A DNA stretch of 64,000 nt from Actinomyces sp. oral taxon 171 str. F0337 (GTDB lineage Bacteria > Actinomycetota > Actinomycetes > Actinomycetales > Actinomycetaceae), in contig NZ_CP040005.1 of the NCBI RefSeq assembly GCF_005696555.1, positions 1,054,001 to 1,118,000 on the forward strand, written 5' to 3'. The first letter of the stretch is position 1. Each line of letters begins with the position of its first letter. The position numbers and the translations under genes are program-made. Positions 60,939 to 64,000 of this stretch are shown here, piece after piece. Under the pieces are notes generated by a model, which saw only the letters and a list, made by a program, of their open reading frames with translations, was not told the DNA's origin and did no database searches.

Positions 60939-61409
60939 ATGCCCAGCTTCGACGCCAGCTCTGCTGCCGCCGCCACGGTCCCCAGGCCCGTGGACGTCGA
61001 CCGTATCCACGAGTGCGTCAAACGCCTGGGACTGCGCTACTTCATCGACGATGAGGGCGACATTGGCATCCCCTGGCGCTACGTCACCGTTCACGCCATC
61101 TTTCAGGACACCAGGGCGGTCCAGATGCGTGGGATCTGGCACCGCATCGCCGACACCGAGCACCTCGCCCAGCTGCGCGCCCTGGTCGAGGACTGGAACA
61201 CCACCCGCATTGGCCCCAAGGCCTATCTCACCGTCGCCGACGGCGGAGTAGTGCGTCTTCACGGCGAGTACACCTACCCCCTCGAGGCGGGGATGACGGA
61301 CCGGCAGCTTGAGGACTTCGTCTTCGGCGGCTGCCGGCTCATCGTCGCCCTCATGCACGAGGCCGAGGAGCAGTTCCCCGACGAGCTGCGCGGAAGCCTG
61401 GAGCCGTGA
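60939..61409 (+). CDS. YbjN-domain protein, first copy
   Basis: 156 aa with a type III secretion chaperone-like fold of the YbjN family. Conserved parts: 'VKRLGLRYFIDDEGDIGIPW', 'LVEDWNTTRIGPKAYLTV', 'EDFVFGGCRLIVAL'. Function unknown. TAGGCT ends 7 bases before the ATG (leaderless type). Overlaps the next YbjN gene (TGATG). Confidence 0.85.
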   Translation: MPSFDASSAAAATVPRPVDVDRIHECVKRLGLRYFIDDEGDIGIPWRYVTVHAIFQDTRAVQMRGIWHRIADTEHLAQLRALVEDWNTTRIGPKAYLTVADGGVVRLHGEYTYPLEAGMTDRQLEDFVFGGCRLIVALMHEAEEQFPDELRGSLEP

Positions 61410-62212
61410 TGCCGCGACTGCAACGCCTCACCGACTTTATCGCACGCCTCCTGGGCAAGGATTGGGACGTGCGGGCGCTGGACCATCAGCGCAGCAGCCG
61501 ACCGAGCAGCCCGGTCAGCGGCCGGCCCGGCGACTCGCGCGACCAGCAGGAAGAGCCCCCGACCGTCTCACCGTACTTCGCGGGGCCCTTGGAGCCTGTA
61601 GACTCAGCCGACTCGACGGACCTGACCGACTCCGGTGCCCCGTCGGGGCCGGGCCAGTCGACCGCGTCGGCGCAGACCTCCGACGCCTCGCACACCTGGT
61701 TGAGCGGGTCAGGCCGGTTGGACGAGGGCCCGGCAGGGGGCGGAGAGGGTGCTGACCGCACTTCAGAACTGGAGTCGACCGATGAGACGACCCAGGCACT
61801 GACCCTGGCAAGGATCGAGTCCATGCTCACCGGCCCCATGGAGTACAGCGTCCAGCTGACCGACGACCGCGAGCACCCCTGCCTCCTGGGCACCTGGGAC
61901 TCCTTCCCCTTCGTCATCGAGATTCCTGAGGGGCACGACGGCTGGCTCCTGGTCTCCGGGGACTGGGAGCAGGCCGCTCCCGCCTCCCAGCGCGACGAGA
62001 TCGCCGCCAGCGTCAATGACTGGAACCGGGACAAGTTCTTCCCCACCGTCGGCGTCGTCGACACCCCCATCGGCCCGCTGGTGCGCGCCACCTACCTCAC
62101 CGACCTGTCCGCCGGGGTCACCGACGCCCAGCTGCGCCTCCACCTGGACACGGCCTTGTCCGCCTGCACCCAGGCACTCAGCCTCGTGGGCCCCCTTCTG
62201 CCGGAGATCTGA
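61409..62212 (+). CDS. YbjN-domain protein, second copy, extended
   Basis: 267 aa. ATG 61409 lies in the TGATG overlap with the first copy; GTG 61406 is also open. N-terminal 130 residues are low complexity (basic start, then Ser/Asp/Thr/Pro-rich). The C-terminal YbjN domain has 'WLLVSGDWEQAAP', 'VNDWNRDKFFPTVGVVDT' and 'DAQLRLHLDTALSACTQAL'. Unknown function; placed before miaA as in other Actinobacteria. Confidence 0.82.
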   Translation: MPRLQRLTDFIARLLGKDWDVRALDHQRSSRPSSPVSGRPGDSRDQQEEPPTVSPYFAGPLEPVDSADSTDLTDSGAPSGPGQSTASAQTSDASHTWLSGSGRLDEGPAGGGEGADRTSELESTDETTQALTLARIESMLTGPMEYSVQLTDDREHPCLLGTWDSFPFVIEIPEGHDGWLLVSGDWEQAAPASQRDEIAASVNDWNRDKFFPTVGVVDTPIGPLVRATYLTDLSAGVTDAQLRLHLDTALSACTQALSLVGPLLPEI

Positions 62213-62217
62213 GCGCC

Positions 62218-63213
62218 ATGAGCCCCAAGGCCTTGAGCGCCCCTCGGCTTCCACGCCTCGTCCTGGTGGGCCCCACCGCCACCGGCAAGTCGGCCATCGC
62301 CCTCGACCTCGCCGAGAAGATACAGGCCGACGAACCGGAAACTCGTGCCGAGATCATCAACGCTGACGCCTCCCTGCTCTACCAGGGCATGGACATCGGC
62401 ACCGCCAAACCCAGCCTCGCCGAGAGATCCCGCGCCCCCCACCACCAGATCGACGTCCTCACCGTCAGGGACCGGGCATCCGTGGCGGCCTTCCAGCGCA
62501 GCGCCCGCGGCGACATTGACGCCGTCGAGTCACGGGGGCACCTGCCGATCATCGCCGGAGGCTCCGGCCTGTACGTGAGGGCCCTGACCGACGACCTCGA
62601 CTTCCCCGGCACCGACCCGGCCGTGCGCACCCGCCTGAGTGAGCGCGCTGAGCAGGAGGGGACGGCCGCCCTCCATGCTGAGCTGGCCCGCCTCGACCCG
62701 GTCGCCGCCGAGCGCGTCGAGGCCTCCAACACCCGCAGGATCGTGCGGGCCCTGGAGGTCATCGAGATCACGGGTCGCCCCTTCTCCGCCTCCCTGCCCC
62801 GTTACGAGGACATCGCCCCCACCGTCCACATCGCCCTGCGCTGCGAGCGTCGGCTCCTGGATAAGCGCATCAACGAGCGGGCCCGCGCCATGTTCGAGCA
62901 CGGACTGGTCGAGGAGGTGGAGACCCTCATCGACCAGGGCATCCGGGAGGGGGAGACCGCCCCGCGCGCCATCGGCTACGCCCAGGCTCTCGCGGTCATC
63001 GACGGGACCATGAGCGTGACCGAGGCGGTCGACTCCACCGCCCTGGCCACCCGCCAGCTCGCCTCCCGCCAGATCAAGTGGTTCCGGCGCGATCCACGGC
63101 TGCACTGGATCGACGTCGCCCTCACCGAGACCGGGCAGTGCACCGACTCCGAGCGCTCCCGGTTGACCCGGCAGGCGTGGGAGCTCGTCTGCGAGCATCG
63201 TGGCGTCGCTTAG
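62218..63213 (+). CDS. miaA: tRNA dimethylallyltransferase
   Basis: 331 aa enzyme adding the isopentenyl group to A37 of tRNA, the step before MiaB. P-loop 'VGPTATGKS' (17-25), 'NADASLLYQGMDIGTAKP' and the C-terminal 'RQIKWFRRDPRLHW'. In the DSxQVY segment of MiaA the Ser/Gln are replaced: here 'NADASLLYQG' (typically D-S-x-Q-x-Y). ATG 62218 follows the YbjN gene by 5 bases. The 3' end overlaps the promoter box of dapF. Confidence 0.93.
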   Translation: MSPKALSAPRLPRLVLVGPTATGKSAIALDLAEKIQADEPETRAEIINADASLLYQGMDIGTAKPSLAERSRAPHHQIDVLTVRDRASVAAFQRSARGDIDAVESRGHLPIIAGGSGLYVRALTDDLDFPGTDPAVRTRLSERAEQEGTAALHAELARLDPVAAERVEASNTRRIVRALEVIEITGRPFSASLPRYEDIAPTVHIALRCERRLLDKRINERARAMFEHGLVEEVETLIDQGIREGETAPRAIGYAQALAVIDGTMSVTEAVDSTALATRQLASRQIKWFRRDPRLHWIDVALTETGQCTDSERSRLTRQAWELVCEHRGVA

Positions 63214-63223
63214 GCTAGGGGCC

Positions 63224-64000
63224 ATGCCGCACTCGACAGGTCTTCGCGGTCGTGAGCTCATCAAGGGCCACGCGACCCTCAACGACTTCCTCATGCTGGT
63301 CGACCCCGGCTGCGAGGTCGCCATCAGCGGTGCCGACATCGCAGCGGTCTGCGACCGCCACAGCGGCATCGGCGCCGACGGCTTCGTGCGCGTCGTGCGG
63401 ACCACCGCCCTGCCTGGAGCCGGGGCCTTCGCCGCGTCGGTGCCCGAGGCCGAGTGGTTCATGGACTACTACCGCGCTGACGGATCCGTGGCCGAGATGA
63501 GCGGCAACGCCGCACGCCTGTTCGCCCACGTCCTGGACCGTGAGGGGCTGTGCCCCATCGCCGACGGCGAGTCCGTCACCATCGGCACGCGCGGTGGGGC
63601 CCGCACCATCACCCGCCTGGGCGAGCTGTGGACCGTGGACATGGGGCCGGTCCGCCTCACCAGCCCCGAGGAGGCCGACGACGAGGGCTGGGACACGGCC
63701 GTCGTCGTCCCCGGCCTGGTCGGGCAGCGGGCCGCCCTGAGTGTGGAGATCTCCGGCCCCCACACTGTCGTCGCCCTGGGGGAGGAGGGCGAGCTCGAGG
63801 CGGCCGCCTTCGCCGGGCTCACCGACTCCACGGACCCGGTCGCCTACGACCCAGCCCCCGAGGCCGGCACCAACCTCGAGCTCGTGGTGCCGCTGGGGGA
63901 GGAGAGCGACCCCGACACCCACTCGCCGGTGGGTATTGCCCGTATGCGCGTCCTGGAGCGCGGCGTGGGGGAGTCCCTCTCCTATGGAGCGGGCTGCTGC
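63224..64000 (+). CDS. dapF: DapF-like epimerase fold protein, catalytic cysteines replaced; 3' end missing
   Basis: First 259 residues of a diaminopimelate epimerase homologue; it runs off the window. The fold marks are there: 'GHATLNDFLMLVD' with Asn20, 'RHSGIGADGF', 'FMDYYRADGS' and 'GTNLELVV'. But the first catalytic cysteine, normally in MCGNGxR, is Ser93 in 'EMSGNAARLFA', and the second, normally in SCGTG, is Tyr254 in 'GESLSYGAGCC'. GNPH is also changed to 'SGPH'. Position after miaA is the standard dapF site. Active epimerase chemistry looks unlikely as read. TAGGCT ends 7 bases before the ATG. Confidence 0.8.
   Translation, partial: MPHSTGLRGRELIKGHATLNDFLMLVDPGCEVAISGADIAAVCDRHSGIGADGFVRVVRTTALPGAGAFAASVPEAEWFMDYYRADGSVAEMSGNAARLFAHVLDREGLCPIADGESVTIGTRGGARTITRLGELWTVDMGPVRLTSPEEADDEGWDTAVVVPGLVGQRAALSVEISGPHTVVALGEEGELEAAAFAGLTDSTDPVAYDPAPEAGTNLELVVPLGEESDPDTHSPVGIARMRVLERGVGESLSYGAGCC

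Follow-up and report, generated by a model that had tools for sequence, protein, structure and literature searches.

The window analysed here, a stretch of 64,000 nucleotides from Actinomyces sp. oral taxon 171 str. F0337 (G000:C1:1054001-1118000 of a single-contig genome of 3.10 Mb), ends within an orthologue of dapF, the gene for diaminopimelate epimerase. We consider this gene to encode, probably, a former epimerase that has become a pseudoenzyme and persists because its fold has some non-catalytic use: an enzyme orthologue without its catalytic residues, which has stayed under purifying selection after their loss. From its ATG at 63224 the frame reads without interruption up to the window edge and for another 174 bases past it, giving a protein of 316 amino acids and a stop codon. 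The protein belongs to DapF by sequence family and fold, and scores below the curated equivalog cut-off of TIGR00652 (96.5 bits against 114.65). The positions that matter, assigned by alignment to the DapF chains of C. glutamicum and M. tuberculosis, are:

63224..64000, + strand: DapF orthologue (putative pseudo-DapF), first 259 of 316 codons; whole gene at L003:5224-6174; PF01678 75.8 bits (full protein), TIGR00652 96.5 bits
63473..63475, + strand: Arg84, at a substrate-binding Asn (N74 of C. glutamicum DapF, CgDapF)
63500..63502, + strand: Ser93, in place of the first catalytic Cys (C83 in CgDapF, C73 in E. coli)
63755..63757, + strand: Gly178 (SGPH motif), at a substrate-binding Asn (CgDapF N159)
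63983..63985, + strand: Tyr254, in place of the second catalytic Cys (C221 in CgDapF, C217 in E. coli)
63989..63991, + strand: Ala256, at a substrate-binding Thr (CgDapF T223)
63995..64000, + strand: Cys258-Cys259 pair, shared with 20 of the 22 orthologues that retain the full catalytic pair

An earlier sequence-only reading of the window had reported that Ser93 and Tyr254 replace both catalytic cysteines, and had placed Asn20, the SGPH motif and Cys258-Cys259; the translation verifies all of these positions, and the alignment with studied DapF proteins that it had proposed as a check does put Ser93 and Tyr254 on the catalytic pair. Its list of active-site changes was right for Ser93, Tyr254 and Gly178 but overlooked Arg84 and Ala256, while the final A of MSGNA, which it had taken for an oddity, is genus background (46 of 48 aligned Actinomyces proteins, including all 22 with both cysteines). 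Among the ten substrate-site residues of CgDapF (N15, N74, G84, N85, N159, N194, E212, R213, G222 and T223), whose roles are described in the available part of PMC5296763, seven are kept and N74, N159 and T223 are changed. According to the same part of that source, single alanine mutants of CgDapF at all five positions changed here are inactive. Classical epimerisation has almost certainly gone from the window protein. A sequencing error at both codons, named as a possible refutation, is ruled out because the combination of Ser and Tyr (S/Y; pairs are written as the residues at the first and second catalytic positions) recurs in other assemblies: it is found in genome G040 and in five of 120 database proteins listed, and 12 of the 120 have C/Y. 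The adjacent Cys258-Cys259, which that reading had suggested may matter, are rejected as a substitute active site since 20 of the 22 orthologues with C/C carry the same pair. A scan of the 3.1-Mb genome with PF01678 returned two matches, the two halves of one dapF, and no second gene of this family, cysteine-bearing or not, at E <= 0.001.

The lysine pathway of this genome suggests how the epimerase became dispensable. Genes dapA, dapB, dapC, dapD, ddh and lysA all score over their cut-offs; since lysA, dapA and dapB are present, lysine synthesis by way of meso-diaminopimelate (meso-DAP) is, by gene content, still encoded. No DapE, which we took as the marker of LL-diaminopimelate (LL-DAP) supply, was found over the cut-off (best match 33.5 bits against 304.2). 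The enzyme Ddh converts tetrahydrodipicolinate directly to meso-DAP. Its route circumvents DapD, DapC, DapE and DapF (available part of PMC8396482; also established pathway knowledge), and with an intact Ddh making meso-DAP directly, DapF is therefore bypassed. The proposal that a Lys/Orn cell wall without need for meso-DAP could have released the protein is not supported for a genome that encodes this route. The Lys/Orn wall type is presumably common to the cysteine-bearing species as well. In terms of gene content, DapF has been freed by the intact meso-DAP dehydrogenase and the loss of DapE, not by the cell wall. A hidden DapE was sought and rejected: of two weak M20 matches in the genome, one falls in an amidohydrolase subfamily and the other in a dipeptidase-like one, and similar weak matches occur in DapE-bearing relatives. 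The gene matching TIGR01891, a broad amidohydrolase family, may have a desuccinylase role. M20 genes number four in four DapE-bearing sister genomes and three in the window organism; of the six other members of its clade, five likewise have three and G022 has two. Because there are three here against four in the sisters, DapE was not replaced by another M20 gene in this genome.

We surveyed 49 Actinomyces genomes, in 48 of which the catalytic positions could be read (G028, with dapF in pieces, was dropped). All 49 contain a DapF homologue; Ddh is over the cut-off in 42, LysA in 47 and DapE in 20, the remaining genomes reaching at most 39 bits for DapE. Both cysteines are present in 20 of 20 genomes with DapE against 2 of 28 without it (Fisher p = 1.4e-11, a test that ignores relatedness). 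Among the 26 genomes without a full pair, 16 have lost both cysteines and 10 have lost one, and the residue pairs found across lineages are diverse (S/Y, C/Y, N/S, C/S, L/C, C/G, Y/S, F/G, Y/G in G024, S/T, T/T, A/T, D/S and S/W). The two DapE-less genomes that still have C/C, G014 and G043, would fit a recent loss of DapE. Six of the seven genomes without Ddh keep DapE and C/C; the seventh, G046, lacks Ddh, DapE, DapD and LysA. Outside the genus, among the matches listed, C/C, N74 and N159 were intact in 73 of 73 loci, a set selected for its resemblance to the window protein rather than at random; among the loci sampled, active-site erosion thus appears peculiar to Actinomyces. Two genomes of the survey merit a remark. 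The 2.2-Mb genome G046 (L054) has no match to Ddh, DapD or LysA and neither DapE nor DapC over the cut-offs; it nevertheless retains a DapF-like frame of 40% identity, in which the catalytic pair reads S/W, and is perhaps a lysine auxotroph. In G015 a lysA match under the cut-off lies in two frames (G015:C1:874883-876228), possibly owing to a frameshift or a sequencing error.

The association is also supported by a test that models relatedness. On a single, midpoint-rooted tree of MiaA, Ddh and DapD from 47 genomes (G046 left out), at least seven changes are needed for DapE and at least seven for the cysteine pair, and a model in which the two traits depend on each other is preferred to an independent one (likelihood ratio 31.0, 4 degrees of freedom, p = 3e-6, some fitted rates lying at their bounds), with a fitted rate of cysteine loss of zero in the presence of DapE and a high rate after its loss. 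An earlier quick-method tree of 48 genomes gave eight changes per trait, and about 3 of 4 supported pairs agreed with the association (sign test p 0.25-0.5). Within the clade of the window organism (seven genomes) changes at C221, T223, N159 and N74 are common to all members and C83 is lost in only two, which suggests from the aligned residues that the second cysteine was probably lost before the first.

The fold, the position after miaA and the open frame are intact, as the sequence-only reading had stated, and its claim of selection for something beyond classical epimerisation is borne out by the ratios of non-synonymous to synonymous substitution rates (dN/dS). These were estimated per clade by Goldman-Yang (GY) codon models with 60 bootstraps each, and the upstream neighbour of dapF was included as a rate control:

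62218..63213, + strand: miaA (IPP transferase), directly 5' of dapF; PF01715 267 bits

For dapF, dN/dS was 0.089 in the window organism's clade, 0.120 and 0.109 in two other clades without the full cysteine pair (hereafter Cys-less) and 0.103 in a mixed clade, against 0.043, 0.064 and 0.061 in intact clades. In the same clades the values were 0.075-0.118 for miaA (its tree length inflated in clade I3, probably by uneven starts), 0.029-0.057 for ddh and 0.017-0.038 for dapD. Bootstrap values ranged from 0.070 to 0.128 in the window organism's clade versus 0.025 to 0.058 in the intact sister group; in clade D3 some replicates ran away, up to 1.0, and clade D5 is not a clean post-loss group, G003 and G004 sitting beside its members on the 48-genome tree. 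For the D4 pair the YN00 method gave 0.061 for dapF and 0.116 for miaA. A branch model on the dapF gene tree of 47 genomes (G046 and G028 left out, relative branch lengths fixed) yielded 0.121 on the 32 crown branches after the loss versus 0.082 elsewhere (p = 3e-7) and rejected neutral evolution after the loss (likelihood ratio 1137). The protein contains no internal stop in 48 of 49 genomes, including Cys-less ones about 40-60% identical to the window protein, and is 316 amino acids long in all seven members of the window organism's clade. The 22 C/C proteins share 136 invariant columns, 11 of them in the pocket; in the 26 Cys-less proteins retention is 0.34 for these 11 columns and 0.88 for the remaining 125. 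N159 is lost in all 26, and outside the window organism's clade the 19 Cys-less genomes have mostly lost N15, N85, N194, E212 and R213 too. Because the pocket columns have been lost and the remaining invariant columns retained, selection still acts more on the fold than on the pocket.

We propose the following sequence of events, the first three steps of which are backed by the genome comparison. The lineage would once have possessed the succinylase route (DapD, DapC, DapE and DapF) together with Ddh; DapE would then have been lost, LL-DAP, the substrate of DapF, presumably no longer being made and Ddh alone feeding LysA; the freed active site of DapF would have eroded, with N74, N159, C221 and T223 changing here before C83. 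In a fourth step, whose function and partner we infer, the protein would have been kept for a non-catalytic job of its fold, most simply the binding of a partner as in the E. coli DapF-RppH pair; the continued selection in this step is a computed result.

Several known systems help to place the protein. DapF of C. glutamicum (5h2g, 5h2y, 5m47), its best solved relative and likewise a member of TIGR00652/PF01678, differs from it at both catalytic cysteines and at three of ten substrate-site residues, and the window protein falls under the NCBIfam equivalog cut-off. C. glutamicum has a similar Ddh bypass, but there the two routes exist side by side and DapF is active, whereas here the chemistry of DapE and DapF is gone and DapC and DapD are kept. 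Crystal structures of the DapF mutants C73S and C217S (2q9h, 2q9j), presumably from H. influenzae, retain the fold with Cys replaced by Ser, although these are single-residue laboratory mutants and the changes here are natural and multiple. The closest functional parallel, a job of the DapF fold done without the cysteines, is E. coli DapF as activator of RppH in mRNA decapping: in the available part of PMC4227774, the protein with both cysteines changed to Ala had no epimerase activity and still bound RppH tightly and stimulated it, and complexes of the two have been solved (6d13, 6vck). E. coli DapF is, however, also a live enzyme; the precedent shows that a non-catalytic role of DapF is possible, with RppH as an example only.

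Some observations weigh against a retained pseudoenzyme. A partner protein has not emerged, no search aimed at one or at an RppH homologue having been made. The 1.5- to 2-fold relaxation of selection would equally suit a gene that is being lost, and the independent-pairs test offered five or six supported pairs, none contrary (sign test p 0.06-0.25), which are too few to reach 0.05. The main cause for caution is the succinylase branch. DapC is over the cut-off in 48 of 49 genomes and DapD in 47, with one more just under it (DapD and DapC loci in the survey: L237:5710-6690; G000:C1:2518202-2519314); 29 genomes are without DapE, and 28 of these have both DapD and DapC with scores above or close to the cut-off, which would be odd for a dead branch. 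The DapE-less genomes may contain a desuccinylase from a family other than M20; if not, DapC and DapD must be used otherwise. The non-catalytic function might also be a second one that is older than the losses and common to the catalytic orthologues, e.g., as a binding or regulatory partner in RNA decay or of DapC/DapD, and of such weight that one lineage after another retains the protein once its chemistry has gone; this is a tentative extension, to which we would give somewhat less than an even chance.

A functionless relic, dispensable with Ddh present and DapE lost and open in frame only through GC-richness and the recency of the loss, would agree with the relaxed selection relative to intact clades, with an erosion centred on the active site and with G028, where the gene is in pieces with an internal stop (in an assembly 82% complete). 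We regard this as unlikely, since dN/dS stays at 0.09-0.12 in Cys-less clades with upper bootstrap bounds of 0.13-0.15 (clades O and D2), neutrality is firmly rejected, internal stops are lacking even in Cys-less frames of about 40-60% identity, and the length of 316 amino acids is constant in the window organism's clade. Nor do we expect the conservation to reside in the DNA, for example through a polar effect on the next gene or a gene encoded antisense to dapF. The tight spacing (miaA 10 bases 5', brnQ 82 bases 3' and present in 36 of 49 loci, with flanks of unequal length) and a long antisense frame open in this genome would speak for such a constraint, but the constraint falls on amino-acid replacements, and 21 of the 46 orthologues inspected have interruptions in the antisense frame, so an antisense gene is ruled out and the explanation as a whole is very improbable.

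Two further explanations would retain catalysis. The DapF fold is common to racemases, dehydratases and PhzF, including the Cys-free PhzF and the Cys/Thr hydroxyproline dehydratases. A pocket refitted to another substrate or chemistry would accord with this versatility and with the fixation of Tyr254 (seven of seven) and Gly178 (six of seven) in the window organism's clade. It has a parallel in the histidine racemase of F. nucleatum (available part of PMC11602996), another DapF fold no longer serving DAP in an organism without the DAP pathway, which differs, however, in being an active cysteine enzyme (PDB titles name C67S and C209S mutants). Against it, no common new pocket emerges and the five substrate residues named above are mostly lost outside that clade; because the pocket residues are unrelated between lineages, we consider a refitted enzyme less likely than a partner-binding role and, on the whole, improbable, although a separate new enzyme may be confined to the window organism's clade. 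An epimerase still active with Ser and Tyr and fed by an undiscovered desuccinylase would account for the retention of DapC and DapD and for the low dN/dS of dapD (0.024-0.038) in four clades with cysteine loss. We give it hardly any credence in view of the inactive CgDapF alanine mutants (available part of PMC5296763), the loss of N159 in every Cys-less protein and the M20 count, which leaves no M20 replacement for DapE in this genome.

The database proteins P0008 (C/Y, named for Actinomyces) and P0127 (A. qiguomingii) are both recorded as diaminopimelate epimerase. If such proteins are indeed retained pseudoenzymes, metabolic models, essentiality predictions and target lists would be wrong to treat DapF as an enzyme in 26 of the 48 species genomes surveyed. 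What is new is neither a fold nor a system but a recurrent, pathway-linked loss of an active site with retained selection; the loss of DapE, then of the DapF active site, with the fold still selected, would amount to a natural experiment in which the catalytic role of DapF is set apart from its non-catalytic one. Should the older second function exist, Actinomyces species would be natural separation-of-function mutants for a moonlighting DapF. The persistence of DapC and DapD without the chemistry of DapE and DapF remains a puzzle. Within the searches made of the open PMC literature we found no report of an inactive or paralogous DapF as a pseudoenzyme or of an interplay of DapF and Ddh in Actinomyces, and nothing on Actinomyces peptidoglycan with MurE; one paper, a functional-gene study of saliva, names both Actinomyces and diaminopimelate epimerase. 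The main text of an essential-gene paper on Schaalia odontolytica makes no mention of the dap genes.

In the surroundings of the gene, dapF starts 10 bases past the end of miaA, and brnQ, on its 3' side, is a branched-chain amino acid transporter gene. Directly 5' of miaA lie two tandem YbjN-family genes (window 60939-62212), which overlap each other by 4 bases. The closest named relative by the dapF product, among the matches listed, is A. oris CCUG 34288 (95%), in a listing that may omit records nearly identical to the window's own. The DapF frames of G032 (L028) and G005 (L030) are about 165 residues longer than usual, apparently through a C-terminal fusion, and the database proteins P0170 and P0171 (491 and 536 amino acids) show PF27222 together with PF01678. 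Finally, L195, titled Vibrio cholerae strain 35D, carries a dapF of actinobacterial type, 46% identical, and most likely represents a mislabelled or contaminated assembly.
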